Origin: Alphaproteobacteria bacterium
GTDB taxonomy: Bacteria; Pseudomonadota; Alphaproteobacteria; JAPYRI01
DNA length: 36,309 bases
Assembly (NCBI GenBank): GCA_029941135.1
Contig: JAPYRI010000022.1
Span: forward strand, 1-36,309
Reading direction: 5' to 3'
Below the pieces are notes generated by a model, which worked only from the letters and a program-made list of their open reading frames with translations, was not told where the DNA came from and searched no databases. Position numbers and translations under genes: made by a program. Below are positions 14,503 to 36,309 of the stretch, in pieces (position 1 is the stretch's first letter; each line of letters starts with the position of its first letter).

Positions 14503-14547
14503 CCGCATGTGACCCCGCTTCCCAGTCCGGGATACTGGAGACGAGAT

Positions 14548-17609: not shown

Positions 17610-18872
17610 CTAAGAGGCGCTCTTCGCCGGATCCCGCGGGTTGTCCCCGGCGGCGCCTCTGTCTCCATCTCGACGAGAGGCCGCTTCGGCAAGTTTCAGG
17701 TGACCGTCGCGTGTTTGTGGCAACTTGCGACCAAGAATTTTTGACGCGACCAACGTGCGGAGAACCCCCACGGTGCCGCCGCCGATGGTAAACATTCGGA
17801 CATCGCGGGCCATACGTTCAAGTGGAAGGTCCCGTCCGTAACCAATGGCCCCAAAGATTTGAAGAGCGTCGTTTACGACCTTGGCACCGCTTTCGGCCGC
17901 GAATATTTTTGCCTGTGCCGCCTCCAGAGCGTCGGGAAAGTCGTTGCCCGCCCGTCCGGCAGCCTTATAAATGAGCGCTTGGGCGGCGGCAATGGCGGTA
18001 CTCATGTCAGCCAGCGTCCACTGCAGTCCCTGAAATTCAGAAATCGGCCTGCCAAACTGTTCGCGTTCATTGGCATAGTCCAACGCCAACCCATAAGCGC
18101 CTTCGGCCAGGCCCAAGGCCACTGTGCCCGCGCCCACTCGCTGGGCGTTGTAAGCATTCATCAGGTCAGCGAAACCACGTCTAAAGCCGCCCGGTGGCAT
18201 AAGTGCCATCGTCGCAGGGACCTCCATACCCTCGAGGATAATTTCGGTCTCCGGGATGCCCCGCAGGCCCATGGCATAAGTCCTTCGCCCTACTTTAAGC
18301 CCCTTGGCTTCGCCACGAACCGCAATGAAGCCGCCAATGCCCAGATTCTCACCGTTCTCGAAGACGCGGGCGAAAATGAGATGCAGCTTGGACACACCAC
18401 CGCCGGTGATCCAATGCTTGCGACCGTTCAAAACATAAGTGTCCCCGTGTTTATCGGCTCGGGTAGTCATTTCCGTAGCCGCACTTCCGGCGCCAGGTTC
18501 GGTTATGCAGATCGCTGGCTTGTCTCCACTCAGCACTAGATCGGCAGCCAAATGCTTTTGTTCTTCAGTGCCGTACGCCATGATGGCGCCGATCGCTCCC
18601 ATGTTGCCCTCAACGGCGATCCGACTTGTGACGCCGCAGACTTGAGCAATTTGCTCAACCACGAGCACAGTATCCAAATAGCTAAGACCACCGCCGCCAT
18701 ATTCCCGCGGAATGGTCATGCCCATAAATCCCGCTTCTTTGAGGTCGGTAGCATTGTCCCACGGGTACTCCTCATCGCGGTCTATGCCGGCCGCCCGCGC
18801 GGCAAAGGTGCCACGTGCCAGTTCTCGGGCGCGATCCTGAAGCGCCTTCTGCTCTCTGCAAAGTTCGAACAT
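17610..18872 (-). CDS. Acyl-CoA dehydrogenase homologue, probable sulfinate-CoA desulfinase
   Basis: The protein has 420 residues from the ATG at 18872, with AAGGGAAAG upstream; the longer frame to 18977 has no site. The acyl-CoA dehydrogenase fold is clear: ITEPGAGSAATEM (124-136), GRKHWITGGG (150-159), EREQFGRPISEFQ, and ALQIFGAIGYGRDLPLER. The usual catalytic Glu of the EGT motif is missing (the site reads TIGGGT), and the alternative isovaleryl-type Glu before an Arg is Gln244 (AQR). An Arg lies at 84. In 3-sulfinopropanoyl-CoA desulfinase (Acd) of Advenella, as I recall, the Glu is likewise absent and Arg84 and Gln246 matter. The likely reaction is release of sulfite from a sulfinoacyl-CoA. 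The last 30 or so residues extend into a hairpin-rich repeat. Confidence 0.8.
   Translation of the reverse strand: MFELCREQKALQDRARELARGTFAARAAGIDRDEEYPWDNATDLKEAGFMGMTIPREYGGGGLSYLDTVLVVEQIAQVCGVTSRIAVEGNMGAIGAIMAYGTEEQKHLAADLVLSGDKPAICITEPGAGSAATEMTTRADKHGDTYVLNGRKHWITGGGVSKLHLIFARVFENGENLGIGGFIAVRGEAKGLKVGRRTYAMGLRGIPETEIILEGMEVPATMALMPPGGFRRGFADLMNAYNAQRVGAGTVALGLAEGAYGLALDYANEREQFGRPISEFQGLQWTLADMSTAIAAAQALIYKAAGRAGNDFPDALEAAQAKIFAAESGAKVVNDALQIFGAIGYGRDLPLERMARDVRMFTIGGGTVGVLRTLVASKILGRKLPQTRDGHLKLAEAASRRDGDRGAAGDNPRDPAKSAS
17614..17659. repeat. Large GC-rich hairpin at the end of the acyl-CoA dehydrogenase gene
   Basis: GAGGCGC (17614-17620) pairs with GCGCCTC (17653-17659), and inside it CGCCGG (17625-17630) pairs with CCGGCG (17647-17652). 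It overlaps the last codons of the dehydrogenase gene, which therefore ends in an unusual Arg/Asp/Gly/Ala-rich tail. It may be part of the adjacent repeat remnant or a transcript-end structure; no U-tract follows on the minus strand. Confidence 0.45.
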
Positions 18873-18970
18873 ATCTTTCCCTTCAATCGCACTGCGCCGG
18901 CAGCGCTCAATCTGTTTTTCGCAAATAAGATACAGCCGGGGGCATTGTAGAGATTTCTGAGTTCTTGACA

Positions 18971-18985
18971 TTGACATAATGCTAA
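18971..18985. promoter_or_regulatory. Island operator site 1 (TTAGCATWATGCTAA family)
   Basis: TTGACATAATGCTAA differs from the consensus at two positions. It lies in the 317-base gap between the divergent desulfinase-like gene (start 18872) and the first DszA-like gene (start 19190), 99 bases upstream of the former. A poorer partner, TTGACATAAATG, starts at 19057. Apart from these sites I see nothing else in the gap. Confidence 0.65.
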
Positions 18986-19189
18986 TTCTATTTTTGGGAT
19001 GTCACCGGGTAAGCGTGATGCGCCCACACAGGGAGCTGTCACTTAGCCAAATGGTATTGACATAAATGGCAGGTCGTTTGAGAGCAACCGTGCGGACAGT
19101 GTTTTGCCTCGCTAAGGAAGAACACGAATGCAACCGGCTTCGGTTCACGTTTTCAAGAACTAGCCGCAACCTAAATTAGAGGCGCAGCA

Positions 19190-20518
19190 ATGCCCAATAA
19201 ATTTCACTTGGCACAATACACCATGCTACCGGTCACGCATCACAGCACGGCGACCTGGAAGCATCCTCGCAACATGAAAGGCGGGTATCAGTTCGACCGG
19301 CCCGAAGTATGGCAGCACATGGCCCAAGTGTGCGAGCGCGCCAAGTTCGATTTTTTCTTCTCGGCTGACACCGAGGGAATATATGAGGAATATCAAGACA
19401 GCTACAAACCCTCGGTCCGGTACGCGGCCCAAGTCCCATGTTTCGACACCGCAACGATTATGTGCTGGATTGCGGCAGCAACATCGAAAATCGGGGTCGT
19501 CCAAACAACCTCGACAGCAGCAATCCCGCCCTACATCGTTGCCCGCCGCATGGCCACTTTCGATCATCTCTCCAATGGCCGCGCGGGAGTTAATATCGTC
19601 ACGGCATTTCACAAAAGCGCAAGCAAGAACCTAGGTGTGCAACTTGACGACTACCATCATAAACACGACTCGCGCTACAACCGGGCGGACGAGTTCATGG
19701 AGGTTTGTTATCAGCTTTGGGACAGTTGGGACAAGGATGCCGTGGTCGAGAATGTTGCTGGAGACATGTTCGCGGACCCGGAGAAAGTTCATGCGATCAA
19801 TTTTAAGGGGGAATATTTTGATGTTGCCGGGCCGCTGAACGTTCATCGTTCGCCGCAGGGACGCCCCTTGATCGTTCAGGCAGGGCAGTCTACCCGGGGA
19901 ATTGAGTTCGCCGCTAAGCACGCCGAAGCCGTTTTTACCATCCAGCGCGACCACGCCGGCATGAAGAGGTATCACGACAAATTAAAAAATAAAATGATCG
20001 AATTTGGGCGCGACCCGGATAGCTGTAAGGTTTTCTATGGTCTACAAGTCTTCGTCGGCGAGACCGAAGAAATTGCCCGAGCCAAGGCCAGTCTTCACAA
20101 TGCGATGGTGACGGACGAAGCCGGGATGACCATGCTTTCGGGCCACTTGAGTCATGATCTGGCAAGGGAAGATCCCGACGCGACCGTCGCAGGAATTGAA
20201 GTTTCGGGTTTACAGGGTCTGATAGACGCATACCGGGACAGCATATCGGAAAGCGATGCCAAACTCCGGGAAATAGCCCATCATCACGGCGTTAGTGTCA
20301 GCGTTCCCCAGGTCGTGGGCGACGCTGAACAAGTCGCGGACTGGATGGCAGAGACCATGGAGGCGGTCGGAGGTGACGGATTTCTTTTGTCGCCCGCCTA
20401 CATTCCCGGATCAACGGAAGAATTTTGTGAACTGGTTATTCCAATTCTTCAAGCACGTGAGTTGGTTCGAGATAAGTATATTGACGGCACTTTGAGGGAC
20501 AATTTGCTCGCATTTTGA
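19190..20518 (+). CDS. DszA/NtaA/SnaA family FMN-dependent monooxygenase, copy 1
   Basis: This 442-residue protein matches the two-component flavin monooxygenases that include DszA (dibenzothiophene sulfone), NtaA (nitrilotriacetate) and SnaA. Visible marks are the N-terminal MPNKFHLAQYTMLPVTHHS, then RPEVWQHMAQVCERAKFDFFF, ATFDHLSNGRAGVNIVT (about 124-140), GEYFDVAGPLNVHRSPQGRP with VQAGQS, and the C-terminal VVGDAEQVADWM. These enzymes need FMNH2 from a separate reductase, and none is in the window. Two more full paralogues (23.1 and 27.4 kb) and a ruined one (34.2-34.7 kb) follow. The gene heads a unit with the CoA-transferase 110 bases downstream. Confidence 0.9.
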   Translation: MPNKFHLAQYTMLPVTHHSTATWKHPRNMKGGYQFDRPEVWQHMAQVCERAKFDFFFSADTEGIYEEYQDSYKPSVRYAAQVPCFDTATIMCWIAAATSKIGVVQTTSTAAIPPYIVARRMATFDHLSNGRAGVNIVTAFHKSASKNLGVQLDDYHHKHDSRYNRADEFMEVCYQLWDSWDKDAVVENVAGDMFADPEKVHAINFKGEYFDVAGPLNVHRSPQGRPLIVQAGQSTRGIEFAAKHAEAVFTIQRDHAGMKRYHDKLKNKMIEFGRDPDSCKVFYGLQVFVGETEEIARAKASLHNAMVTDEAGMTMLSGHLSHDLAREDPDATVAGIEVSGLQGLIDAYRDSISESDAKLREIAHHHGVSVSVPQVVGDAEQVADWMAETMEAVGGDGFLLSPAYIPGSTEEFCELVIPILQARELVRDKYIDGTLRDNLLAF

Positions 20519-20628
20519 TCTACTGGTGCGTCGTCCGATATCTTCACAGTCGTTCACGCATTCGAGTGATACGTAACTATTGCTTAAAAGCCGGATAGTT
20601 TCTGGGAACATTGTAATTGGGGAGTATC

Positions 20629-21855
20629 ATGAAACCCTTGGACGGCATCAGAGTTTTAGATCTCACCCGGTATCTCGCCGGGCCCCACTGCACCATGCTG
20701 CTGGGTGGTCTTGGCGCCGATGTCATTAAGATCGAGCCGCCGGGACGCGGCGATTTTTATCGCGATCGCGCTCCTTACGGCGGACCGCAAGGGTGTTCCA
20801 GCAAGAGACTTACCGAAGAGGATATCGGCATAGGACTGATCCATCGGGCCCGTAACAAAAAGAGCATCACGCTGGACTTGCACTCCGACGAGGGTCGGGC
20901 ATTGTTTGCGCGCCTATGCGAGAAGTCGGATGTCATTGTCGAGAATTACTCCCCCGGTGTCATGGACGAGATGGGGTTTTCGTACGAGAGCTTGAAACAT
21001 CTTAATCCTCGGATCGTTCTGTGCTCGATCTCGGGATTTGGGCAAACCGGTCCCCTGAAGAGCCGACGCGCCTACGATCCAATCATTCAAGCCATGAGTG
21101 GCTTGATGTCAATCACCGGATTCGCCGGGCATCCGCCGCTCCGAACGGGCGCGGCGATCGCCGATACGGCAACGCCGATGATCGCGGTCATCGGGATCCT
21201 CTCGGCATTGATGCAGCGTAAAGCTTCCGGACACGGCGACTGGGTTGACGTTGCCATGCTCGATTCTCTGATGTTTCTGATGCCGGAAGTGATTGAATAT
21301 TTTCAGGGTGGCGCTCTCACGCTCCCCATGGAAAACCGCCACCCGGGTGGAGTTCCCTTCAATTTATTCGAGGCGTCAGACGGTCACGTCTTCATCGCCG
21401 TCGTCACCGACAACGATTGGAATAACTTGCTTAGCGCGATGGATCGGAAAGACCTGGTTGGCGACCCCCAGTTTAGCGGACTGCCAAACCGTCTTGAGCA
21501 CTTGGATGAAATCGAGGCGATGATTAAAGATTGGGTCAAAGAGCACTCACGTGACTACGTGGTCGACGTTCTCCAAGCAAACAAAGTCGCGGTCGGTCCA
21601 GTTCTATCGATGTCTGAATCTTTGGACAGCTCCCAACTTAGAGATCGGGAGATGCTAGTTCCCCTAAAGCACCCCAACAGCGAAAAAATTCCTGATGTTG
21701 TCGGGCTTGGGATGCCGATTCGCTTCACCGAGAATCCGATCCGTTTCGACCGGCGGGCTCCAGCGCAGGGCGAGCACAACGAAGAGATATTTGGAGATCT
21801 GCTTGAAATCGGACCTGGAGAATTGGCCGAACTTAAGGCCCGGGACGTCATCTAG
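20629..21855 (+). CDS. Class III (CaiB/BaiF) CoA-transferase
   Basis: The protein has 408 residues from the ATG at 20629, preceded by GGGGAG; a TTG four codons earlier is rejected. Family marks are LDGIRVLDLTRYLAGPHCTM at the N-terminus, GADVIKIEPPGRGD, ITLDLHSDEGR, the catalytic Asp150 in RAYDPIIQAMSG, and the C-terminal PIRFTENPIRF. These enzymes move CoA between acids through an aspartyl-CoA intermediate. In Variovorax paradoxus TBEA6 a class III CoA-transferase activates 3-sulfinopropionate ahead of the Acd desulfinase (from memory), so this gene next to the desulfinase-like gene is a good candidate to make the sulfinoacyl-CoA. The substrate is inference. Confidence 0.9.
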   Translation: MKPLDGIRVLDLTRYLAGPHCTMLLGGLGADVIKIEPPGRGDFYRDRAPYGGPQGCSSKRLTEEDIGIGLIHRARNKKSITLDLHSDEGRALFARLCEKSDVIVENYSPGVMDEMGFSYESLKHLNPRIVLCSISGFGQTGPLKSRRAYDPIIQAMSGLMSITGFAGHPPLRTGAAIADTATPMIAVIGILSALMQRKASGHGDWVDVAMLDSLMFLMPEVIEYFQGGALTLPMENRHPGGVPFNLFEASDGHVFIAVVTDNDWNNLLSAMDRKDLVGDPQFSGLPNRLEHLDEIEAMIKDWVKEHSRDYVVDVLQANKVAVGPVLSMSESLDSSQLRDREMLVPLKHPNSEKIPDVVGLGMPIRFTENPIRFDRRAPAQGEHNEEIFGDLLEIGPGELAELKARDVI

Positions 21856-21870
21856 ATTCGAAGTCGGGCG

Positions 21871-22953
21871 CTATGCCTGTGCCTCCATCTTCTGATTATT
21901 GTGCTCTAGCAGTAACGGCCGGACCATGCGCCCGAAGCGCTCGGCTTCCGCATCATGTAAATAACCCGAGAGACAGAAGGAATGACAACCAACATCAATG
22001 AACTGTTGGAGAGTAGCCGCACACTGTTCCGGATTGCCCACAACGGCGATACCCGCCCCCGCGCGCACCTTTGTGATGCCGGCCCAGAGGTTGGGCCCCA
22101 ACATACCATCTTCGATCTTCGAAAGCTCCTTCATCCGCGTGTTGGCCACCGAGACATTAAACATGTTTCGGACCATTTCCTTGTGCGCTTCGCTCGCACC
22201 ATCGACCAGGGACCGCGCCGCATCCCAGGCGTCTTTTTCCCGCTCCCGGCAGATAATTTGCAGGCGCATGCCAAATCCTATTTCGTTGCGCCGTTCGCGC
22301 TGGGCGGCGAGCTTGCGGATTTCAGAGATCTGAGCGCCGATCCGCTCGGGTGTGTCGCCCCAAAAAAGATGCACATCCGCGTGCTTTGCCGATAGCTCCC
22401 ACGCCCGCCGCGACCCGCCGCCCAAGTAAAAATCTGGATATGGCTGCTGGAGGATTGGCGGACGAATGAGCGCCTTCTTAAGCCGATAATAGGTCCCGTT
22501 AAAGTCTATTGCGCCCTTGGCCGTCCACAGCTCTTTGAGGATCGTGACCTCTTCGTCCATCACGTCGTAGCGTTCTTCCTTTCTGAATTTAATGCCTTCG
22601 GCTGCGGCTTCCTCGTCGCTGGCGCCCGCGATCAGATTGATACAAATCCGGCCTCCGGACAGACGATCGAAGGTCGAAATCATCTTTGCGAGCAGTACTG
22701 GGTTGATATATCCGGGCCGGGCGGCAACAAGCATTTTGATCGATTTAGAGCGCGCAACCATCATTGCACTGGCGATCCATGCCTCCCAGCACATGGTTTG
22801 AACCGGGATCAGCATATATTCGAAACCCGCTCGCTCCGCCGCCAGGGTTACCCTTTCGAACATATCTACCGACTGTTCGACCTGAGTGGGTTGAATGAAT
22901 GACGTAGTGTCGCCATTGGTCGGAAGAAACCATCCAAATTCTAAAGACCGCAT
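21871..22953 (-). CDS. SsuD-like LLM flavin-dependent monooxygenase
   Basis: The protein has 360 residues from the ATG at 22953, with AGGGGA upstream; the longer frame to 22992 is weaker. The start RSLEFGWFLPTNGDTTSF parallels alkanesulfonate monooxygenase SsuD (FWFLPTHGD), and the body keeps FERVTLAAERAGFEYMLIPV, RPGYINPVLLAKMISTFDRL, SGGRICINLIAG, and DFYLGGGSRRAWELSAKHAD. Members use FMNH2 and oxygen to cleave C-S bonds of sulfonates or perform Baeyer-Villiger-like reactions. It is transcribed away from the second DszA-like gene and shares a promoter region with two palindromes. In this setting C-S bond cleavage is the likeliest role, but sulfonate specificity cannot be claimed. Confidence 0.85.
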   Translation of the reverse strand: MRSLEFGWFLPTNGDTTSFIQPTQVEQSVDMFERVTLAAERAGFEYMLIPVQTMCWEAWIASAMMVARSKSIKMLVAARPGYINPVLLAKMISTFDRLSGGRICINLIAGASDEEAAAEGIKFRKEERYDVMDEEVTILKELWTAKGAIDFNGTYYRLKKALIRPPILQQPYPDFYLGGGSRRAWELSAKHADVHLFWGDTPERIGAQISEIRKLAAQRERRNEIGFGMRLQIICREREKDAWDAARSLVDGASEAHKEMVRNMFNVSVANTRMKELSKIEDGMLGPNLWAGITKVRAGAGIAVVGNPEQCAATLQQFIDVGCHSFCLSGYLHDAEAERFGRMVRPLLLEHNNQKMEAQA

Positions 22954-23030
22954 AACCGGAGTCCCCTGGCTATAGAAGAGATAAATTGGCATCGGATTTC
23001 ATGCGATGCTTTGAGCTGCTTAAAAGTAGT

Positions 23031-23045
23031 TTATCACAATGCTAA
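23031..23045. promoter_or_regulatory. Island operator site 2
   Basis: TTATCACAATGCTAA differs from the consensus at two positions in the left half and has a perfect right half. It lies between the divergent SsuD-like gene (78 bases) and the second DszA-like gene (90 bases) and could control both. Confidence 0.65.
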
Positions 23046-23052
23046 CCTACTG

Positions 23053-23063
23053 ACCATAATGGT
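23053..23063. promoter_or_regulatory. Adjacent 11-base perfect palindrome
   Basis: ACCATAATGGT is a perfect palindrome around a central A and shares the CATAATG core of the island operators but has different outer bases. It begins eight bases after site 2, so it may be a second, weaker binding site or the operator of another regulator. Confidence 0.4.
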
Positions 23064-23134
23064 GCTATCTTGGTTTGGGGAATTCGAATATCGGCTTGAG
23101 CCTTGTCGCTGTCATCTAAACTTGGGGGAGAAAA

Positions 23135-24460
23135 ATGGCTAAGAAGAAAATGCACTTGGTTGGCTTCATGATTAACAGTCCCATGTGCCATTCCATTTCA
23201 AGTTGGACGCACCCACGGGACCGAGTCGGCTACAAATGGACCGAGCCCGAGGTGTGGCAGGAAGTCGCGCGAACCCTGGAGCGGGGGAAGTTTGACGCGC
23301 TGTTCCTGGCGGACGTCATGGCGCCTTTCGGCAAGTATAAAAACCGTATGGATGAAGCCTTGCGGTATGCGCTTCAGTTTCCTACTCACGATCCCTTAGT
23401 CTTAATACCAACAATGTCGGTCGTGACCGAGCATCTGGGTTTCGCGGCCACGGCTTCCACCACTTACAATGACCCCTATACACTCGCGCGCCGTTTTTCG
23501 ACCCTGGACCATCTGACCAAGGGACGCATTGGATGGAACATCGTCACCTCGATCCAGACCAACGAAGCGCGTAATTTCGGCCAACAGGAAATGCCCTCCC
23601 ATGATGTTCGATACGCGCGCGCGCGCGAATTCCTGGAAGTATGCAACAAGCTGTGGTCGAGCTGGGAACCGGACGCGGTGGTCATGGACAAAGAAAACCA
23701 AATTTTCACGGATCCCACCAAAGTAAAAGCCATCAACCATAAAGGTATTTTTTTTGACGTGGCCGGACCGCTATGCTGTGCACCGTCACCCCAGGGACGG
23801 CCCGTGATCATTCAGGCGGGCGCATCCGAGCAGGGGCGCGACTATGCCGCACAGCATGCGGAGTATGTTTTTGGTTTACAACTTAACACTGCGGGGATGA
23901 GGGCCTTTTCAGATGATATCCGGAAGCGGGCAGTCAAAAAATTTGGCCGCAAGCCCGAGGAAGTCAAAATTATGTACGGCATCCAGGTTATTCTGGGCCA
24001 CACCGAAGCCGAGGCTAGGGCAAAGCAAAAAATGATGGCGGATCTTGTACCATTCGAGGGCGCCATGGCGATCCTGTCGGGGCATTTGAATTTTGATTGG
24101 TCGGAATACGATCTGGACGCGCCGCTGGAAAATATCAAAACCGAGGGGGTGCAGGGTATTCTCGATGCGATGATCGGAATGATCGGGGGGGAGAAGGCGC
24201 TTACATTGCGGGAAGCCGCATTGATGCACGGGCGGAGTGTGTCCATGCCGCAGGTCATGGGAACAGCCGAGCAGGTAGCGGATCAGATGGAAACCATGAT
24301 GGACGAAGGTGGCGGGAACGGGTTCCAGATCACACCGACCTACATCCCGGGTTCGTTTCAAGAACTCGTGGACGGCCTGGTACCCGTGCTCCAAAAACGC
24401 GGCCTCCACCGAGAGGAGTACACAGGCAAAACACTGCGCGATCATTTGCGGGAATATTGA
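23135..24460 (+). CDS. DszA/NtaA/SnaA family FMN-dependent monooxygenase, copy 2
   Basis: This 441-residue paralogue of the gene at 19190 shows KMHLVGFMINSPMCHSISSW at the N-terminus, EPEVWQEVARTLERGKFDAL, STLDHLTKGRIGWNIVTSI, GIFFDVAGPLCCAPSPQGRP with IIQAGASEQG, and the C-terminal VMGTAEQVADQME and KTLRDHL. The ATG follows a GGGGGAG site. An MFS transporter gene follows 58 bases downstream, probably in the same transcript, which suggests that the transporter brings in a compound this enzyme acts on. As with its paralogues, a flavin reductase partner must come from elsewhere. Confidence 0.9.
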   Translation: MAKKKMHLVGFMINSPMCHSISSWTHPRDRVGYKWTEPEVWQEVARTLERGKFDALFLADVMAPFGKYKNRMDEALRYALQFPTHDPLVLIPTMSVVTEHLGFAATASTTYNDPYTLARRFSTLDHLTKGRIGWNIVTSIQTNEARNFGQQEMPSHDVRYARAREFLEVCNKLWSSWEPDAVVMDKENQIFTDPTKVKAINHKGIFFDVAGPLCCAPSPQGRPVIIQAGASEQGRDYAAQHAEYVFGLQLNTAGMRAFSDDIRKRAVKKFGRKPEEVKIMYGIQVILGHTEAEARAKQKMMADLVPFEGAMAILSGHLNFDWSEYDLDAPLENIKTEGVQGILDAMIGMIGGEKALTLREAALMHGRSVSMPQVMGTAEQVADQMETMMDEGGGNGFQITPTYIPGSFQELVDGLVPVLQKRGLHREEYTGKTLRDHLREY

Positions 24461-24518
24461 GAGCTGCGGTTTTCGTCGTCATCCGTGACGGCAACTAATT
24501 GTGCCCGGAATAAAAGAA

Positions 24519-25793: not shown

Positions 25794-25829
25794 TTAAGCT
25801 GGCTGCCCAAAAAATGAATCATAACTGAA

Positions 25830-25844
25830 TTAGCGTTATGCTAA
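25830..25844. promoter_or_regulatory. Island operator site 3
   Basis: TTAGCGTTATGCTAA has perfect outer arms TTAGC/GCTAA. It lies between the MFS stop and the amidohydrolase start, 77 bases ahead of the ATG at 25921, so the amidohydrolase and third DszA-like gene appear to have their own promoter. Confidence 0.72.
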
Positions 25845-25920
25845 TATAACAATGAAAACGCCTGGATCTCGTAAAAGTAACTCAATTCACTTCGCAACCA
25901 CGCACTACATAGGAGGTATC

Positions 25921-27387: not shown

Positions 27388-27424
27388 TCGGAACGGCATG
27401 ACCATTCTATAGAGGGTGTAGACG

Positions 27425-28741: not shown

Positions 28742-28773
28742 AGCGACGGACTCCGCGCCCATCCGGGACGCCT

Positions 28774-30018
28774 TTATTCGATAACAATATCCGTGGGGAC
28801 AATGCCGTCGAAATGCTTCCGCTGGTAATTCCACGGGGTCTGGGGTTGTTGCCGGCCCTTCTCGTCGGTCGCCCGCGCCATGATTTGATAAACGCCAGGT
28901 TTCACCGCGTCCCAAACGTAATTCCAGCGCACCCACATCCAACGGTCGTGAGATTCTTCAACATGGGCGTCCTCCCACGTCGTCCCGCCATCGACGCTGA
29001 CCTCGACCCCGACGATCGCCCCTTCTCCGCTCCAAGCCAAGCCGCGCACCGGATGGGTCCCGGCCGGCAGGGGGGAATCCTCGTCGATCGGGTCGAGGAT
29101 AACCGCCTTAACTCCCAGCGCCGTACACATGACTTTATTGGGGTCTTCCGGCGTGTCACCCAGAACGAAATATTCGGTCTGGTGGTAGCAGTCGGGCATG
29201 TGGTCCATGACCTCGATCTGCTCGATCCATTTGACCCACCAATTGCCCGACCAGCCAGGGACTACAAGGCGCAACGGTGCACCATGGATGTGGTGCAAGT
29301 GTTCTCCATTCATAGCCCAAGCGAGGAGCGTGTCTGGGTGCAAGGCCTTCTCCATCGGAAGGCCCTTGTCGTAATTGATTACGCCTGGGTCTTTCACCTC
29401 AATGTCGTCCCGGCCCGAAGAAAGGTATATCAAACTTGGGTCTGGCCGGCCGCGGTCAAAGCCTTGGAAGCGAACAGCAACTGCATTCGACTTGACGCCG
29501 GCCAATTTTAGGACCTCCCGCAGGGGGACGCCGGAAAATTCGCCGGCGCTCGACATGCCCGTCGTGGGCAGCGAGTTTCCGATGGCCTCTATTGACAGCT
29601 TTTTTCCGTCTTTGGGTTTCAGGGCACTAAAATCCATTTCCTTGGGCGACACCAAGGAGGGTTTCTTGCCGTCCTTATGAAGATAATTGAAGAACATGGT
29701 GTCGTTACCTGCACATTCCGTAACTGCCCGCACGGTTTGCGACGGCAACTTCTTCAGGTCCTCCAGCGTAAGCGTGAGCGGCTTTTCGACCTCGCCGCAG
29801 ATTTCCATTTCCCAATCATCCGGGTGGATAGGTTCCGGCATATCGAGTTGAGCCACGATGTAATAGAGATCGGTTGGCGTAATGCGGCCTTCGAGTTCGG
29901 TCATGGGGGTCGTGGCGAAGATTGTCCGCCCTTCCGCGTCGTTAGCTTCCAACGATTCGGGCCGTTTACGATCCGGCCAACCGCGGATCCAACCGCCCTC
30001 AATTTCCCGTCGTGGCAT
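28774..30018 (-). CDS. Sulfite oxidase-fold molybdenum oxidoreductase
   Basis: This 414-residue protein starts at ATG 30018 after GGGAGGAG. It has the sulfite oxidase Mo-cofactor domain (about 40-270), with the molybdenum ligand Cys102 in TECAGN and NGEHLHHIHGAPLRLVVPGW typical of SUOX/SorA/SoxC, followed by the dimerisation domain (about 290-400, with VEVSVDGGTTWEDA). There is no Tat signal, haem domain or membrane segment, so it should be cytoplasmic. The usual CAGNRR is CAGNDT here, so substrate geometry may differ. Its island setting makes oxidation of released sulfite the likeliest role. It shares its promoter region with the divergent TetR gene, and its RNA start is probably under the same operator. 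Confidence 0.85.
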   Translation of the reverse strand: MPRREIEGGWIRGWPDRKRPESLEANDAEGRTIFATTPMTELEGRITPTDLYYIVAQLDMPEPIHPDDWEMEICGEVEKPLTLTLEDLKKLPSQTVRAVTECAGNDTMFFNYLHKDGKKPSLVSPKEMDFSALKPKDGKKLSIEAIGNSLPTTGMSSAGEFSGVPLREVLKLAGVKSNAVAVRFQGFDRGRPDPSLIYLSSGRDDIEVKDPGVINYDKGLPMEKALHPDTLLAWAMNGEHLHHIHGAPLRLVVPGWSGNWWVKWIEQIEVMDHMPDCYHQTEYFVLGDTPEDPNKVMCTALGVKAVILDPIDEDSPLPAGTHPVRGLAWSGEGAIVGVEVSVDGGTTWEDAHVEESHDRWMWVRWNYVWDAVKPGVYQIMARATDEKGRQQPQTPWNYQRKHFDGIVPTDIVIE

Positions 30019-30099
30019 GACTTTATCTCCTCCCCTAAAACGACCGCATCACAGCATGCAACTCATTACTTTTTCGCGTATACTAAGGTTTAACATAAG

Positions 30100-30114
30100 C
30101 TAGCATAATGCTAA
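30100..30114. promoter_or_regulatory. Island operator site 4 (autoregulatory site)
   Basis: CTAGCATAATGCTAA differs from the consensus only at its first base. It lies 51 bases before the TetR start and 82 bases before the divergent molybdoenzyme start, the expected place for an autoregulated TetR operator. Confidence 0.75.
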
Positions 30115-30164
30115 ACTGATTATAAAATCACCTTGAAATCAAAGATATAAAGGCATTGTAGTGC

Positions 30165-30788
30165 ATGCCGCATCAGATTACCCGTACTGGCCAAGATCGA
30201 GCCGCCACCGAAGCCGCCCTTGAGGACGCGGCCATGCGTCTGCTTGATCGCAACGGTGTTCTGGCGGGCCTTAATCTGCGGGAAGTCGCCGCCGAGGCCG
30301 GCGTCAACCGGGGTCTGGTTTATCATTATTTTGGTTCGCGCTCGGCGCTGTTGCAGCGAGCATTGCGGCGAAACGCGCGTGAACGTATCGGCGCCATTTC
30401 AGATGCTGAAAGACTACCGTTTCGCGAACGAATTCTGCGTTACTGGCGAACAATTACAAAATACCGTCGGGAGGTTCGCCTTGTCACTCTGCTGCTACTC
30501 GATTCCAAGGATGCGGTATTTGAATCAGGTGAGGGACCACAGCTTACCCCTATTCGAAAACAAACCATTCAAGCCTTTGTGGAAGATCAGGAAAAAGGTT
30601 TGATCGACGGTGATATCAATCTGGACGGTCTTCATGCGGTAATCATCTCCCTGGTGTCGGGCTATGCAATCTATCGCGACGAATTAGCGAGGTCGGCCAA
30701 GATGCCCGCCGACATCCTGGATGAAAAGGTCGAAGCAATTTTCGGAAAGATGCTAGAGGCTTTACAAACCGGCGGTCAAAAAAAATAA
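30165..30788 (+). CDS. TetR family regulator, probable master of the organosulfur island
   Basis: This 207-residue protein has an N-terminal TetR domain: AALEDAAMRLLDRNG, LNLREVAAEAGVNRGLVYHY and FGSRSALLQRAL (about 15-62), then an all-helical ligand domain. The ATG follows AAAGG at about 11 bases. Site 4 of the shared palindrome is in its promoter, and six more copies stand before other island units, so it is the obvious candidate to bind them. As a TetR protein it probably represses until a pathway compound, perhaps a CoA ester, binds. Binding and ligand are inference. Confidence 0.88.
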   Translation: MPHQITRTGQDRAATEAALEDAAMRLLDRNGVLAGLNLREVAAEAGVNRGLVYHYFGSRSALLQRALRRNARERIGAISDAERLPFRERILRYWRTITKYRREVRLVTLLLLDSKDAVFESGEGPQLTPIRKQTIQAFVEDQEKGLIDGDINLDGLHAVIISLVSGYAIYRDELARSAKMPADILDEKVEAIFGKMLEALQTGGQKK

Positions 30789-30866
30789 AACCGACTATAA
30801 TTTTTCATGATGCGCCTTTTTCCTCAATGACCGGGTGAGGGCGGAAATCTGGGATCGACCTGATGT

Positions 30867-30881
30867 TTATCATTATGCTAA
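30867..30881. promoter_or_regulatory. Island operator site 5
   Basis: TTATCATTATGCTAA differs at one arm position and at the centre. It lies 38 bases before the GTG chosen as the ETF beta start and inside a longer upstream frame, which argues that the longer start is not used. Confidence 0.7.
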
Positions 30882-30918
30882 GTTACAGGCTCCAAAACAA
30901 GAACGGACTGACACAAGC

Positions 30919-31731
30919 GTGATTCACATCGTCGTCTGCGCGAAATGGATTCCAGACCCAGAGGTCACTGCGACCGAGTTCAAGATTGATCCCGAATCCT
31001 TACGGCGGGCTGAAATCGCCGGGCTCGCCCTGGTAATGAGCCCCTATGATGAGCAGTGCTTCGAGGCCGCGTTGCGCATTCGCGAGCAGGCGGACGAAGA
31101 GGTTAAAATCACGGCGCTTTGTCTGGACACGGACCCGATGATCAAGTTGTTCCGGCAGGCTTTCTCGTGGGACGTGGAAGCGGGCTTTTTTCTGTGCGAC
31201 CCGGTCTTTGAAGACAGCGATGGCTACACAACCTCATTCGCCCTGGGAACGGCAATCCAAAAAATTGGCGACGTGGACCTGATTCTGACCGGACGCCAAG
31301 CGGCGGACGGCGACGAGGGCATGGTCGGATTTGGCATAGCCGAGCATCTGGGAATTCCTGTTCTTCCGTGCGCAGCCGAAGTAAAAGTTCAGGATGGCTC
31401 GGTCATAATCGAGCGGGTTCTGGACAATGGGTTTGAAACCCTGGAAACGCCGCTTCCCGCAGTGGTAACCGTTTCCAACGAAATAGGCGAAGCCCGCAGG
31501 CCAAGCATGCGCCAAGTCATGCGCGCCGCGCGACAAAAACCCACCGTATGGTCGGCGGAAGATATCGGGCTCGATGCCGCGCAACTGGACACGTCCGCCA
31601 TGCGCCTCACAGTGGAAGATATCTTTGTCCCGAAAGTTGATCACAGCTGCGAGTTCATCACGGGCGAGACGCCGGGCGATCTGGCGGAAGCTCTGGTCGG
31701 CAAGCTGCGTGAACTGCGGGTGATCCCATGA
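30919..31731 (+). CDS. etfB: Electron transfer flavoprotein, beta subunit
   Basis: The protein has 270 residues from GTG 30919, which gives the canonical start VIHIVVCAKWIPDPE; an in-frame GTG at 30835 would add 28 residues and run through operator site 5. Family marks are MSPYDEQCFEAALRIRE, DLILTGRQAADGDEGMVGFG, PLPAVVTVSNEIGEARRPSM (the recognition-loop region), and a C-terminal helix. ETF beta holds AMP and docks on acyl-CoA dehydrogenases to take their electrons to the quinone pool. The alpha-subunit gene overlaps its stop by four bases. A dedicated ETF inside the regulon is notable because the desulfinase-like reaction should not need one. Confidence 0.92.
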   Translation: MIHIVVCAKWIPDPEVTATEFKIDPESLRRAEIAGLALVMSPYDEQCFEAALRIREQADEEVKITALCLDTDPMIKLFRQAFSWDVEAGFFLCDPVFEDSDGYTTSFALGTAIQKIGDVDLILTGRQAADGDEGMVGFGIAEHLGIPVLPCAAEVKVQDGSVIIERVLDNGFETLETPLPAVVTVSNEIGEARRPSMRQVMRAARQKPTVWSAEDIGLDAAQLDTSAMRLTVEDIFVPKVDHSCEFITGETPGDLAEALVGKLRELRVIP

Positions 31732-32705
31732 GCGCGACGGGGGTCTTGATCTGGGCCGAGATCGCGGATGGCGCCGCCACGGCGTCGAGCTACGAATTAT
31801 TAGGGCTGGGGCGTCGCCTCGCCGATGACATGGGTGGCCCACTCTCGGCCGTCGTCCTGGGGCCGGAAAGCGCAGCCGCGATCGAACAACTCATTTCCCG
31901 CGGCGCGGATAGTGTCTACGTTTTTGACGATCCTGATCAGAGCGAATTTCACACCGATGCCGCGCTCCTGGTTCTTGAAGCTGCCGCAGACAAGGTCGAG
32001 CCGGCTTTATTTTTGTTGCCGCACTCAAGCTACGGCACTGAGCTTGCGCCAAGGCTCGCGTTTCGCAACGAATCAGCGCCGGCAATGGGTTGCGTGGATG
32101 GGCGCGTCGAAGACGGCAAACTACTTCTAACCCGGCCCTGCTACGGCGGACGGGCACGTGCGGTCGTGAGTTTTCGTTCAGCCCCGGCGATTGCCACCCT
32201 ACGGCCAAAATCTCAAGAACCTTTGGCAGCAGAGCCCGGACGGCAGGGTGAAACGATCTCGCTCGATATCAACATTCCTCCCGAAACTATCCGCGTGAAC
32301 GTCAGAGAGAGACGGCAGAATGTCGAACAAGGCGTGCGGCTCGATGAGGCGGAAATCGTGATTTCGGGCGGGCGCGGCCTCGGCGGTCCGGACGGGTTCA
32401 AGATTCTGGAAGAGCTGGCGGACGCGCTTGGCGGCGCGGTGGGCGCCAGCCGGCCAGCCTGTGATCTGGGCTGGTACCCTCAGGCGCACCAGGTTGGCAT
32501 ATCGGGCAAGACCGTAGCGCCGGATCTTTATATCGCGGTCGGCATCTCGGGTGCCGGGCAACATATGGCTGGCTGTGCCGGCGCCAAAGTATTGGTGGCC
32601 ATCAACAAAGACCCCGACGCGTCGATATTCTCGTATGCTCATATTGGCATAGCCTCTGAGTACCAGGAGATACTTCCTGAAATATTGGAACTGATACGCC
32701 GCTAG
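31728..32705 (+). CDS. etfA: Electron transfer flavoprotein, alpha subunit
   Basis: This 325-residue protein starts at the ATG of an ATGA overlap with the beta gene. The C-terminal FAD domain is intact: IVISGGRGLGGPDGF (about 212-226), ASRPACDLGWYPQAHQVG, SGKTVAPDLYIAVGISGAGQH, and VAINKDPDASIF. Length and motif order are those of the common ETF alpha. It forms the heterodimer with the beta subunit and passes electrons to ETF-quinone oxidoreductase, which is not in the window. No gene follows within 254 bases, and I see no clear terminator in that gap. Confidence 0.93.
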   Translation: MSATGVLIWAEIADGAATASSYELLGLGRRLADDMGGPLSAVVLGPESAAAIEQLISRGADSVYVFDDPDQSEFHTDAALLVLEAAADKVEPALFLLPHSSYGTELAPRLAFRNESAPAMGCVDGRVEDGKLLLTRPCYGGRARAVVSFRSAPAIATLRPKSQEPLAAEPGRQGETISLDINIPPETIRVNVRERRQNVEQGVRLDEAEIVISGGRGLGGPDGFKILEELADALGGAVGASRPACDLGWYPQAHQVGISGKTVAPDLYIAVGISGAGQHMAGCAGAKVLVAINKDPDASIFSYAHIGIASEYQEILPEILELIRR

Positions 32706-32959
32706 AGCCGTCGGGATATCGCCGAAATGACAAAGTCACTTTCCGAGATCATTGATTACCGGTTTGGTTATGGACGAACGTCGACACTATTCTTTAGTCA
32801 CCCGATGGAGTCTTTCCAATGTGCGGACTAAGTGTCGGTTATCCGGCATACGGTAGGTACACGTCCATGAGATTACCCCCAAAATTGGTGGTGCGCACAG
32901 AAAGTTATGACGACAGTGAGTTTGAAGCAGAGATCTCCGCCCATGACCCGACTTCGGGA

Positions 32960-34093
32960 CTAAATCATGTAGGGGTGAGCCGCGACACCGGCGTCTTCAT
33001 ACAGGCTGGTTCGGACAACGTTCCCAGGGTTCCTGAATTCGGGGATCACGTATTTTCCGAACATTTCGATGCTTGCCATTATTTTGCTATGGCCATGCCC
33101 ATCCATCCGCAAGATGACCTCATCGACGCCCATGCTTTCGAACACGCGTAGTCTTTTGATAATGTCGTCCGGGGTGCCGATCAGAAACCACGGCAAAGCA
33201 TCGACCAGATAGGGAAGGTCGTCGGCGTGGTTACCGAGCGTCTTTTTTACATCCGCCAGATAGGCGTAATCGGGACTGGTATCGCCGATGGCTCCGTAAA
33301 ACGTCATGAGAAATTTCGCGAACCCAAGAGACGACGGGCGCGCCTCATCGAGCGCTTGCTCCTTTGTTGGCGCACAGTGAACGCCGACAATGCAAAGCGA
33401 CATGTTTTCTGTGATTTGTGTGCCTGCCAGTGGCTCGGCGCTGGCGAGCCCGTCGCGGTAGGCCTTAATGCAGTCGTTCTGGTAATTCCATCCGAAGGGT
33501 GACGCGTTCATGGCGCCGATGCCAAGCTTTCCGGCGGTGGTGTGGGTTTCGATGCTGGTCGCGGACACGTGGATCGGCGGGAAATCGGGCTGGTACAGGC
33601 GGGGCCATACCTCGGTCGGGGATATGTCGTAGAATTTACCGTGGTGCTCGATCTTTTCTTCGGTCAAGGCTTTCACGCAAACTTCGAGCGTCTCACGCCA
33701 CTCGGCTCTGGTCCCTTTTGCATCGATCTCGAAAGTACTGACCACGCCCGCGTTGTTGCCCCGGGCGGTACCAAACTCCATGCGGCCACGGGATAGGATA
33801 TCGAGCGTCGCCAATCGCTCGGCGGTTCGGATCGGATGATTGAAGTGCAGCATCACGATGGACATGGTGCGCAGTTTGATCCGGCTGGTCGAGTAGGCCA
33901 CCGCGCCGTACAAGACCTCGGGTGCGGAAATAGTTGCAGCCGGGCCGGTGAAGTGTTGCTCAGAACTTCCCCAAAAATCAAAGCCCATCTCTTCCAGAAA
34001 TTGTGCTTCCCGAATAACTTCATGGTAACGCTCAGCCACGGATGCCCCTGGAGGCGTATCCCCTTCGGTCAAAAATCCGAATGTCATTGCCAT
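32960..34093 (-). CDS. LLM class flavin-dependent oxidoreductase (luciferase-like)
   Basis: This 377-residue protein starts at ATG 34093, preceded by AGGAGGAG. It is a luciferase-like TIM barrel: FGFLTEGDTPPGASVAERYH, EEMGFDFWGSSEQHF, MLHFNHPIRTAERLATLDIL, SRGRMEFGTARGNN, and a C-terminal VDALPWFLIGTPDDIIKRL. It is unlike the DszA-type paralogues, lacking their long C-terminal extension, and is closest to the general bacterial luciferase group. It likely uses FMNH2. Only a poorly matching version of the island operator precedes it (34187-34202), so its membership of the regulon is less certain. Confidence 0.85.
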   Translation of the reverse strand: MAMTFGFLTEGDTPPGASVAERYHEVIREAQFLEEMGFDFWGSSEQHFTGPAATISAPEVLYGAVAYSTSRIKLRTMSIVMLHFNHPIRTAERLATLDILSRGRMEFGTARGNNAGVVSTFEIDAKGTRAEWRETLEVCVKALTEEKIEHHGKFYDISPTEVWPRLYQPDFPPIHVSATSIETHTTAGKLGIGAMNASPFGWNYQNDCIKAYRDGLASAEPLAGTQITENMSLCIVGVHCAPTKEQALDEARPSSLGFAKFLMTFYGAIGDTSPDYAYLADVKKTLGNHADDLPYLVDALPWFLIGTPDDIIKRLRVFESMGVDEVILRMDGHGHSKIMASIEMFGKYVIPEFRNPGNVVRTSLYEDAGVAAHPYMI

Positions 34094-34186
34094 CTGTCTC
34101 TCCTCCTTTTTTGATCCGGCGAAAGCGGGTCGCTCCCGCGCCTCGAAACCGTCGTATACACTGGCGTTCTTATTGTAGTTTTTTGT

Positions 34187-34202
34187 TCAGCTAATAAGCT
34201 AT
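34187..34202. promoter_or_regulatory. Degenerate island operator-like site
   Basis: TCAGC and GCTAT are separated by six bases instead of five, so both arms resemble the TTAGC/GCTAA arms but the spacing is off. It lies 94 bases upstream of the LLM gene that starts at 34093. It may be a weak or lost site. Confidence 0.25.
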
Positions 34203-34724
34203 CAGATTGTCCCGCCGTCCCCCAGGTGCTCGGTGTGCACCAGCCCCCGCATCGGAAAGACGGGCACGACGAGGTCCGCGAACTCCTCCACCATGCCTGT
34301 CATGCAGGCCAGCCAAATAAGGAAATCTTCTCCGGCCACCGTCTCCAGGGTCTCTTGCATCCAATCCGCTACCTGTTCTGGCGTCCCGACGACCAACGGA
34401 TCACCTCAGTACTCCCGAACACCTTAGCAATCTCGCCGACTGTCATTTGCCACCCTTGATCGGGGTCAGAGAATGGATAAGTTCGGCCCTAGTCCGGGCC
34501 ACGTCTTCGTTCTGGTATGCGTCGCAGACACCGCTGCCTATATCCGCAGAAAAGATGAAATCGAAATTGGCTAACTCGGCCAACCTGGCCATGTATTGCC
34601 ATATCTCCGGCCGGTCGAAGCGATGGCCCCGCTTGATGTTACGCGGCTGCTTCCGGCCGCCGACGGTATGGTGCGTCACAGGCGGACTGGAGAAGAGACC
34701 TAAATGGATTTTTCCCCCATAACT
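34202..34724 (-). pseudogene. Ruined fourth DszA/NtaA-type monooxygenase
   Basis: Pieces of the same family lie in order on the minus strand but in different frames. An N-terminal part runs from about 34724, with GGKIHLGLFSSPPVTHHT and DRPEIWQYMARLAELANFDF; its ATG is put out of frame at a GGGGGAAAAA run. It ends soon after FSADIGSG. A short VGEIAKVFGS piece and a C-terminal part with VVGTPEQVADWMQETL and EEFADLVVPVF follow. About two-thirds of the gene, including the central barrel, is deleted, and at least two frameshifts remain. The N-terminus resembles copy 1 (PVTHHST, RPEVWQHMAQ) most. Confidence 0.8.
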
Positions 34725-34777
34725 CCTATCTCTGCTCGCCCTGCACGTGCCCGCGTGACCAGAGTGGCATGTGTTCC

Positions 34778-36043
34778 CTAAAAGAAACTGTTCTGCGGCA
34801 GATACTCGCCATTAACGATGTAGTCAGCTATGGCGCGTGATTTGTAAGGAGTAGGATTATGCGAGGACAAGGTCCGGATATTGCGCCAATGGCGATCAAG
34901 ATCCGCGCTTTGTTTGATTGCCGACGAACCGCCCACATCGAACAACATGGTCGCGGCGCGAGGCGCAATCTCATCAATCATTACCTTCGCTTGCGCTGCC
35001 AGAAGCGAGCCGCGATGGGTGAGATCGAAGTCTGTCACCCCGTTGACCAGCGTCGCAAGCGCTTCGTCCTGGGCGTCGGCCGCGGCCATAACGACGGCTT
35101 CGGCTGCGATCGCGCTACTCGCGATCCGTCCAATGACGTCTAGCAGCAGCGGATCGGCAGCAGCGGTCTCCGCGCTGCCATGCGAATAAGTGCGTTCGCG
35201 TTTACGTACAAGTTGCACTGCATCATTCAATATGCTCCGCAGTACGCCGACTATAATGGCCGTCAGGATCAGCTGGCAAAGCTGTCCAAGGAGATACGGC
35301 TCAGTGGGAATTTGCGGAGATTCACCATCTACTTCTGTCATGAGTGTCGCCTGCAACAGCTCATCCGCGCTTACAATCGCGTCGTCAAAATTAATGGTCC
35401 CGCTGCCGGTCAGTCGTTGGCCGATCCCATCCCAGTCATCTTTCATGTCGACGCCGTCCCGGTCGGTCGGAATCACGGCCGAGGCTAATTCCCCTTCCGG
35501 ATTCGACGCTATAACCCGGACCCAGTCCGAGTACAGGCTACCCGTGCAGTAGTATTTCGTGCCGTTCAGGACATAGCCGTCGCCCTTCGGCGTGAGTTGA
35601 GTTTGCAAGACAAAAGCGCCGACCGCAGCGCTGCCCCCAATTTCGGTTACAGCGTTGCCGAATATGTCGCCAGCTACGATTCGCTCTAGCCAGCGGTCTC
35701 GGTCCGCAGAGTTGGTCAGGCGCATCAGCTCTTCGACGAACCAGAAGTGTGCGCGCAAGATGTGCGGAATATCGGGGTCCGCTTCGGCCAGGTCGATAAG
35801 GGCCGCGAACAATTCGCGTATGCTGCAGCCTCCACCGCCTTGTGCTTGCGGGACCCGCAGCGCACCCAGGCGGGATTGCCGGACGATGTCGATCGCAGCA
35901 TGCGGGTTAACTCCTTCGAGCTTGCTCTCGGCCGCACTACGCCCAATGTCCTCGATCACCTGGAGATATTCAGGGGTACCGTACCGTACCGGCTGGCAAT
36001 TGTCGGTACGGCATTGCATCTTTGCGGATAATTTACTGCTCAT
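34778..36043 (-). CDS. DszC/SfnB-like flavin monooxygenase (acyl-CoA dehydrogenase superfamily)
   Basis: This 421-residue protein starts at ATG 36043 with AGGGGA upstream. It belongs to the acyl-CoA dehydrogenase superfamily branch of flavin monooxygenases that includes DszC, which oxidises dibenzothiophene to the sulfone, and SfnB. Marks are ALRVPQAQGGGG, IFGNAVTEIGG, GDGYVLNGTKYYCTGSLYSD, and the family-typical end RHWRNIRTLSSHNP (384-397) in place of the dehydrogenase EGT motif. Such enzymes take FMNH2 from a reductase and oxygenate sulfur or activate oxygen for desulfurisation. It faces away from the truncated last gene, with two operator copies between them. Substrate not determined. Confidence 0.85.
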   Translation of the reverse strand: MSSKLSAKMQCRTDNCQPVRYGTPEYLQVIEDIGRSAAESKLEGVNPHAAIDIVRQSRLGALRVPQAQGGGGCSIRELFAALIDLAEADPDIPHILRAHFWFVEELMRLTNSADRDRWLERIVAGDIFGNAVTEIGGSAAVGAFVLQTQLTPKGDGYVLNGTKYYCTGSLYSDWVRVIASNPEGELASAVIPTDRDGVDMKDDWDGIGQRLTGSGTINFDDAIVSADELLQATLMTEVDGESPQIPTEPYLLGQLCQLILTAIIVGVLRSILNDAVQLVRKRERTYSHGSAETAAADPLLLDVIGRIASSAIAAEAVVMAAADAQDEALATLVNGVTDFDLTHRGSLLAAQAKVMIDEIAPRAATMLFDVGGSSAIKQSADLDRHWRNIRTLSSHNPTPYKSRAIADYIVNGEYLPQNSFF

Positions 36044-36110
36044 TTTGGTCCCCTATGAAACCGTGCAGGGATTTTAAGTTTGCCCGGCTTTCTGAATATA
36101 CTTACATTCT

Positions 36111-36125
36111 TTAGCATTATGATAA
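36111..36125. promoter_or_regulatory. Island operator site 6
   Basis: TTAGCATTATGATAA differs from the consensus at one arm position. It lies 68 bases before the DszC-like start on the minus strand. Confidence 0.7.
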
Positions 36126-36177
36126 TCATCGCAACCATAATCAGTATTTATCAGCTTCTTGTATTGGAATGCCGAAT

Positions 36178-36192
36178 TTAGCATACTGCTAA
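36178..36192. promoter_or_regulatory. Island operator site 7
   Basis: TTAGCATACTGCTAA differs at one central position and has perfect outer arms. It lies 72 bases before the last, plus-strand gene. Sites 6 and 7 are 67 bases apart, so each divergent promoter may have its own copy. Confidence 0.75.
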
Positions 36193-36263
36193 ATAAATGC
36201 TACGCTCAGGAAACACGTGAAACACGCCAGCTGGTCACCGGACGCGCACAAGGAGGAAACACC

Positions 36264-36309
36264 ATGAAGAGCAACACTTTTCTCAGCCCGATTAAGGTGC
36301 GTGCCAAGG
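36264..36309 (+). CDS. Start of a further gene, truncated by window edge
   Basis: An ATG at 36264 follows an excellent AAGGAGG site and opens a frame reading MKSNTFLSPIKVRAK to the window end. Site 7 lies just upstream, so it is likely a member of the same regulon. Fifteen residues do not allow a family call; a missing flavin reductase or another monooxygenase would fit the setting. Confidence 0.6.
   Translation, partial: MKSNTFLSPIKVRAK

Follow-up and report, generated by a model that had tools for sequence, protein, structure and literature searches.

A candidate TetR-controlled regulon combining Dsz/Sfn-type oxygenases with a coenzyme A-dependent desulfinase in an alphaproteobacterial genome

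Introduction

How aliphatic sulfones and thioethers are degraded beyond the sulfinate stage in the absence of DszB is an open question, an example being the sulfolane-degrading Rhodoferax, for which the desulfination step is open (PMC6395730). The locus examined here lies in the right half of contig C22 (JAPYRI010000022.1) of an Alphaproteobacteria genome of 3.02 Mb (178 contigs, 95% complete), the whole contig (positions 1-36309; 36,309 nucleotides) being referred to as the window. The relatives of this genome within the comparison collection belong to the same class only. The locus had been described, in an original prediction made from the sequence, as an organosulfur degradation system joining Dsz-type oxygenases to coenzyme A (CoA)-dependent desulfination. 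All members of the gene list given in that prediction were found as intact open reading frames (ORFs) in this half of the contig, and the set proves to be a real, co-regulated one. The reading preferred here, to which a probability of about 0.5 is assigned on the basis of sequence comparison, is that the set forms a regulon under TetR repression that is dedicated to the catabolism of an aliphatic thioether or sulfone and provides for S-oxygenation, C-S cleavage, CoA activation, desulfination and sulfite oxidation.

A shared operator and its presumed regulator

The palindrome TTAGCATWATGCTAA precedes nearly every gene of the organosulfur set. Ten sites with no more than two mismatches to this sequence were identified genome-wide, eight of them on the 36-kb contig C22, and all five of the sites with one mismatch in the 3.02-Mb genome fall within the window. 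Seven of the sites with up to two mismatches span positions 18971-36192, a stretch in which approximately 0.01 sites would be expected from the two found across the other 2.99 Mb. A looser operator pattern gave 8 matches against a mean of 0.99 in shuffled windows, and the TTAGCATWATGCTAA pattern read backwards gave 4 chance matches in the genome. The eighth site of the contig, at 7092, falls inside another ORF and is probably a chance match. The shared operator put forward in the original prediction is thus upheld by both the genome-wide site counts and the comparison with shuffled windows.

In relation to the genes described in the following sections, operators were located in the gap between the desulfinase and LLM1 genes (18971-18985, TTGACATAATGCTAA, two mismatches), in that between the SsuD-like and LLM2 genes (23031-23045, TTATCACAATGCTAA), ahead of the amidohydrolase-LLM3 pair (25830-25844, TTAGCGTTATGCTAA, one mismatch), between the sulfite oxidase and TetR genes (30100-30114, CTAGCATAATGCTAA, one mismatch), ahead of etfBA, inside the 5' end of the first of its ORFs (30867-30881, TTATCATTATGCTAA, one mismatch), and twice ahead of the SfnB-like gene (36111-36125, TTAGCATTATGATAA, and 36178-36192, TTAGCATACTGCTAA, each with one mismatch). 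Those at 18971, 23031 and 30100 overlap promoter-like hexamers (TTGACA-18-TATTTT for the first and a promoter-like stretch at 30090-30117 for the last), as expected of a repressor site, this being weak evidence. A TetR-family regulator (PF00440) is encoded at 30165-30788 on the + strand and, because its gene adjoins an operator, is presumed to own the palindrome and to bind it.

The desulfinase

The ORF at 17610-18872 (- strand; the frame opens at 18977, with the conserved start methionine at 18872) encodes a protein of the acyl-CoA dehydrogenase (ACAD) type that passes the curated equivalog model NF042439 with 647.3 bits (cut-off 600), the next best ACAD model scoring 295. Its closest solved structure is that of Acd (5af7), at 528 bits versus 229 for the next. 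The catalytic glutamate is replaced by glycine, a change shared with 5af7, and the motif FTIGGGT is found where dehydrogenases have a YEGT-type motif. By these sequence features the protein is a genuine member of the 3-sulfinopropionyl-CoA desulfinase (Acd) family, in agreement with the desulfinase-like homologue initially proposed. The identity of an ordinary acyl-CoA dehydrogenase was ruled out by the NF042439 score, the match to 5af7 and the missing catalytic glutamate.

Across a comparison set of 80 desulfinase loci (65-73% identity to the protein of the window), an Act-type CoA-transferase (at least 45% identity) was present at 14 and the full oxygenase set at one. On annotated plasmids, the desulfinase was found to adjoin an Act-type CoA-transferase, and either a cysteine dioxygenase or a putative sulfate exporter was encoded close by. 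A desulfinase relative at locus L022 (genome G001) is accompanied by a class III aminotransferase, a carbon-nitrogen hydrolase, an oligopeptide-type ATP-binding cassette (ABC) transporter and a sigma-54 activator, and another at L023 (G011) lies near a thiamine pyrophosphate enzyme, contexts hinting at other sulfinate sources.

The flavin oxygenases

The cut-off of TIGR03860 (279.7 bits) is exceeded by four genes in the genome, three of which lie within 9.5 kb of the window, a clustering that is non-random. These three encode NtaA/DmoA/DszA-type flavin mononucleotide (FMN) monooxygenases, namely LLM1 (19190-20518, + strand, 455 bits), LLM2 (23135-24460, + strand, 530 bits) and LLM3 (27425-28741, + strand, 501 bits). 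DszA was identified as the closest solved structure for both LLM1 (5tlc) and LLM3 (374 bits), and LLM2 matched LadA, DszA, DmoA and EmoA with 362, 357, 317 and 191 bits, respectively. For each of the three proteins the nitrilotriacetate monooxygenase structure and EmoA scored well below DszA, LadA and DmoA, which disfavours reading them as NtaA/EmoA amine oxygenases, the grouping named in the original prediction as one that would speak against it; the substrate cannot be deduced from family membership alone. In a tree that included DszA and LadA, built on few references, the clades of LLM1-3 exclude DszA 5tlc, with LLM1 and LLM3 forming one clade, in which LLM3 is sister to the LLM1 group, and LLM2 falling in another that also holds LadA, where it is sister to its 54% relative from the G385 island described below. 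The monooxygenases first called DszA-like do therefore score best against DszA, LadA and DmoA, but judged by the tree they are of DszA type and not DszA orthologues.

The SfnB-like protein (34778-36043, - strand) is a predicted flavin oxygenase of the SfnB/DszC/MsuC group with the acyl-CoA dehydrogenase fold, and matches the structures of TdsC, DszC and MsuC (6u76), those of DszC type outscoring MsuC. Adjoining its gene is a decayed NtaA/DszA-type monooxygenase pseudogene (34191-34720, - strand), which represents a fourth oxygenase of the LLM type and consists of N- and C-terminal remnants with stops between them (TIGR03860 match of 40.9 bits with an internal stop). The SsuD/MsuD-like FMN monooxygenase (21871-22992, - strand) has MsuD (7jv3) as its first match among solved structures, followed by SsuD, and glutamine replaces histidine in its conserved FGIRLH motif. 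On Rhodococcus oxybenzonivorans plasmid pRB98 (L134), a 45% relative of the SfnB-like protein occurs with NtaA/DmoA and other LLM oxygenases, a TauD-family gene and a methionine-type ABC transporter.

CoA-transferase, sulfite oxidation and remaining genes

A class III CoA-transferase (PF02515, 389 bits) is encoded at 20617-21855 on the + strand. In a rapidly built tree, some of whose branches are long, it grouped with transferases of genomes G385 and G776 (see below), outside the Act clade, with a support of 100, and it shares 33-38% identity with desulfinase-linked transferases. Its closest relatives adjoin relatives of LLM1, placing it in an LLM1-linked lineage. Class III CoA-transferases gave 15 matches in the source genome, the best Act-like match anywhere in it having 40% identity. 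The transferase and desulfinase had been predicted to be the pair known from 3-sulfinopropionate catabolism; this stands for the desulfinase but not for the transferase, the tree ruling out an Act and Acd pair.

The sulfite-oxidase-fold enzyme (28774-30018, - strand; PF00174 and PF03404) possesses the molybdenum (Mo)-cofactor and dimerisation domains, and the cysteine of its AVTECAGN motif (Mo ligand) aligns with SorA. From these features it is presumed to act as a sulfite dehydrogenase.

The remaining members of the set are an importer of the major facilitator superfamily (MFS), of the aromatic acid/H+ symport type (24501-25793, + strand; MFS_1), which is in an operon with LLM2, an Amidohydro_2-family protein (25852-27387, + strand; PF04909, 53 bits) with weak PDB matches to ACMSD, DitZ and PtmU3, and the two subunits of an electron transfer flavoprotein (ETF), beta (30835-31731, + strand; PF01012, the true start probably near 30919) and alpha (31728-32705, + strand; PF00766 and PF01012). 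ETF genes were also found near the desulfinase at two of the 80 loci (L087 and L095). Because no operator precedes it, a luciferase-like ORF (32960-34093, - strand) probably lies outside the system. Also outside the set is an HTTM/vitamin K-dependent gamma-carboxylase-like gene (window 14509-15963), which adjoins a short-chain dehydrogenase/reductase (SDR) gene.

Occurrence in other genomes

A search for the same gene set elsewhere had been suggested with the original prediction, a failure of the genes to co-occur being named there as a ground against it, and the set was found again in a distant genome, the Gammaproteobacteria groundwater metagenome-assembled genome G385. Contig C40 of this genome carries L103, one of the 80 desulfinase loci, at which oxygenases lie beside the desulfinase in an island of approximately 50 kb (roughly 16-66 kb). 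The island holds relatives of seven window genes at 54-75% identity, these being LLM1 (75%, with further relatives at 69 and 52%), the SsuD-like protein (74%), the MFS importer (72%), the SfnB-like protein (70%), the desulfinase (67%), the CoA-transferase (64%) and LLM2 (54%). Genes flanking the set in the left half of the window gave weak superfamily-level matches at most in the island (SDR 31%, LLM5 27%). The island also encodes a SoxC that passes its cut-off (561 bits against 420), followed by a cytochrome c, together with two TauD proteins, two soluble diiron monooxygenases, a nitroreductase-family protein, an HsaB-like flavin reductase, additional ACADs, enoyl-CoA hydratases and a YeiH-type putative sulfate exporter. 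Beyond it lie ParB (integrative and conjugative element type) and AcaB-family genes, which belong to an integrative element, and further along the 10-100 kb portion of C40 an HsdM-type methylase gene and a YhcG-type nuclease gene were observed.

In G776, a genome of the same order as G385, an LLM1 relative (66%) lies beside a CoA-transferase of the window type (61%), with a desulfinase (67%) on another contig. When LLM1 was searched for in 369 genomes from the same class as G385, 36 from its order and 399 from the phylum, only G385 and G776 were returned, and a search of 385 genomes from the source's class for the MFS importer gave no other match at E<=1e-80. Among plasmids, the importer had no match, and matches to the oxygenases and the SfnB-like protein did not exceed 41-46%. 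The gene set is rare outside G385 and G776, and the operator is not conserved in either of these genomes.

Comparison with known systems

No report of a 3-sulfinopropionyl-CoA desulfinase combined with Dsz-type oxygenases was found among the open-licence papers searched. In the thiodipropionate and dithiodipropionate routes of Variovorax paradoxus TBEA6 and Advenella mimigardefordensis DPN7, a dioxygenase makes 3-sulfinopropionate from 3-mercaptopropionate, and the 3-sulfinopropionate is then activated by Act or SucCD (PMC6370202, PMC5373536). What the catabolism of 3,3'-thiodipropionate and dithiodipropionate shares with the window is the desulfinase family, a CoA activation step and terminal sulfite oxidation, whereas the window has flavin oxygenases in front, no cysteine-dioxygenase-like enzyme that could be found and a CoA-transferase of another lineage. 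The 4S (Dsz) pathway is similar in pairing an oxygenase of the DszC-type fold with DszA-type FMN oxygenases, a sulfinate being the expected intermediate, but differs from the window in that the latter has a CoA-dependent desulfinase, no DszB among its genes, encoded sulfite oxidation and non-orthologous oxygenases.

Dimethylsulfone assimilation by SfnG-MsuC-MsuD (PMC8234197) has MsuC/SfnB-type and MsuD/SsuD-type enzymes in common with the window, where NtaA/DszA-type oxygenases are found in place of SfnG and the desulfinase, CoA-transferase and sulfite oxidase are additional. Sulfolane-degrading Rhodoferax (PMC6395730) likewise has several DszA homologues and no DszB, but Sox and Ssu genes are invoked and neither a desulfinase nor a CoA-transferase is proposed. 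The flavin-monooxygenase expansions of SAR202 (PMC5395668) comprise flavin monooxygenases with a sulfite oxidase, and organosulfur use is proposed for them, as for the window; no desulfinase term was found in the searched parts of that work, and the window by contrast is a compact single-operator regulon.

Weighing of alternative explanations

A number of observations weigh against a catabolic regulon for thioethers or sulfones. The SfnB-like protein reached 277 bits against a cut-off of 430.9 for TIGR04022 (SfnB) and 153 against 850 for NF043015 (DszC), the SsuD-like protein 285 bits to SsuD models with cut-offs of 518 (TIGR03565) and 510 (NF001939), and the sulfite-oxidase-fold enzyme 205 of 420 bits for SoxC, 181 of 600 for SorA and 148 of 570 for SorT. 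The predicted DszC-like, SsuD-like and sulfite-oxidase-fold proteins are thus present, with fitting structural relatives for the former two and the fold and Mo-ligand cysteine for the third, but they fall short of the respective family cut-offs. The CoA-transferase is of a non-Act lineage, and no flavin reductase was identified in the regulon, which may be incomplete as captured since the contig ends 117 bases past the last operator. Enzymes of TIGR03860 act on many compounds, and the desulfinase reaction is not known to involve a net oxidation, leaving the ETF without an obvious partner. LadA, which is near LLM2 in the tree, showed no activity towards either dibenzothiophene sulfone or alkanes (PMC12449030). 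Furthermore, these oxygenases were missing from nearly all of the 80 desulfinase loci and from the surroundings of the gene in three same-class genomes that carry a desulfinase (G015 covered in part); as the desulfinase is usually found without them, it can serve other substrates.

One alternative is that sulfur leaves as in the Pseudomonas dimethylsulfone pathway, with an alkanesulfinate from C-S cleavage converted to a sulfonate by the SfnB/MsuC-like enzyme and sulfite released by the SsuD/MsuD-like enzyme, the desulfinase being a side branch. The SfnG-MsuC-MsuD sequence is established (PMC8234197), MsuC and MsuD are among the structural matches given above (MsuD being the best for the SsuD-like protein), and relatives of both proteins concerned occur in the G385 island at 70-74% identity. 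This route is nevertheless unlikely to be the principal one, as it explains neither the CoA-transferase nor the presence, under the common operator, of a desulfinase that passes its cut-off, and as the SfnB-like protein scores higher to DszC-type structures than to MsuC and the SsuD-like protein carries the glutamine in its FGIRLH motif. By analogy with that pathway, such a sulfonate exit, a branch absent from the original prediction, may work in parallel as a second exit for sulfur. Distinctly unlikely is an arrangement of two modules under one regulator, in which LLM1 and the CoA-transferase would serve a non-sulfur or general alkyl acid beside a separate 3-sulfinopropionate module. The lineages of these two proteins do travel together, lying in G776 at least 20 kb from any desulfinase and adjoining a zinc alcohol dehydrogenase and an enoyl-CoA hydratase; in addition, a haloarchaeal plasmid of Natrinema halophilum (L136) has three LLM oxygenases, a class III CoA-transferase (36% to that of the window), two ACADs and an enoyl-CoA hydratase, with no annotated sulfur gene. 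However, seven genes drawn from both supposed modules occur together in the unrelated G385 island, and a single operator covers both in the window.

Assimilatory scavenging, with the regulon yielding sulfite for biosynthesis under sulfate limitation in the manner of ssu, sfn and dsz genes, appears the least probable of the three. Enzymes of the SsuD, SfnB and TauD types are typical of sulfur starvation, and a DszB-less Gordonia strain responds to dibenzothiophene by inducing sfnB, tauD and ACAD genes (PMC11852219). Against this, sulfite needed for biosynthesis would be lost to the sulfite oxidase that the regulon itself encodes, the presence of a desulfinase and a CoA-transferase suggests recovery of carbon, control is presumably by a local TetR and not by a sulfur-starvation regulator, and the G385 island has SoxC and a putative sulfate exporter as well.

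Source of the sulfinate and proposed pathway

No match to CDO_I (PF05995), the family of 3-mercaptopropionate dioxygenase, was found in the 95%-complete source genome or in G385, and for this reason the sulfinate probably comes from another source. In the reading inferred here, oxygenation of the Dsz/Sfn type would supply it in place of thiol oxidation. DszB is likewise missing among the interval's 14 main ORFs, all otherwise assigned, so that its predicted absence holds for the genes of the window, to which the search was limited.

In the proposed catabolic route, the substrate would enter through the MFS importer and the SfnB/DszC-type oxygenase would convert it to the sulfone by S-oxygenation, after which at least one of LLM1-3 would cleave the C-S bond oxidatively to an aldehyde and a sulfinate, ending as 3-sulfinopropionate. 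A class III CoA-transferase, either the cluster's own or another of the genome's 15 matches, would activate the sulfinate with CoA, the Acd-type desulfinase would release propionyl-CoA and sulfite, and the sulfite-oxidase-fold enzyme would oxidise the latter. A shorter alkanesulfinate from the other side of the substrate could be oxidised to the sulfonate and then cut by the SsuD/MsuD-like enzyme. The order of these steps and the choice of the transferase making 3-sulfinopropionyl-CoA are our suggestion, as are the roles that the ETF and the amidohydrolase may have in the pathway. Carboxylic acids are the most likely substrates, examples being 3-(alkylthio)- and 3-(alkylsulfonyl)propionates or their cyclic equivalents; these propionates would fit because the known desulfinase requires a beta-sulfinyl acyl-CoA, and sulfolane alone fits less well because its ring opening would yield a C4 gamma-sulfinate.

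Significance

It is tentatively suggested, with less confidence than the regulon itself, that the locus represents a complete DszB-independent desulfurisation, with Dsz/Sfn-type oxygenases supplying a desulfinase that depends on CoA, encoded on a horizontally spread catabolic island, allowing growth on aliphatic thioether or sulfone acids and involving a new CoA-transferase lineage for sulfinates or sulfonyl acids. LLM1, the MFS importer, the SfnB-like protein and the CoA-transferase could serve as marker genes for spotting the route in other genomes. The regulon would provide a concrete answer to how a sulfinate may be removed without DszB, namely by formation of a CoA thioester followed by elimination of sulfite by an enzyme of the acyl-CoA dehydrogenase fold.

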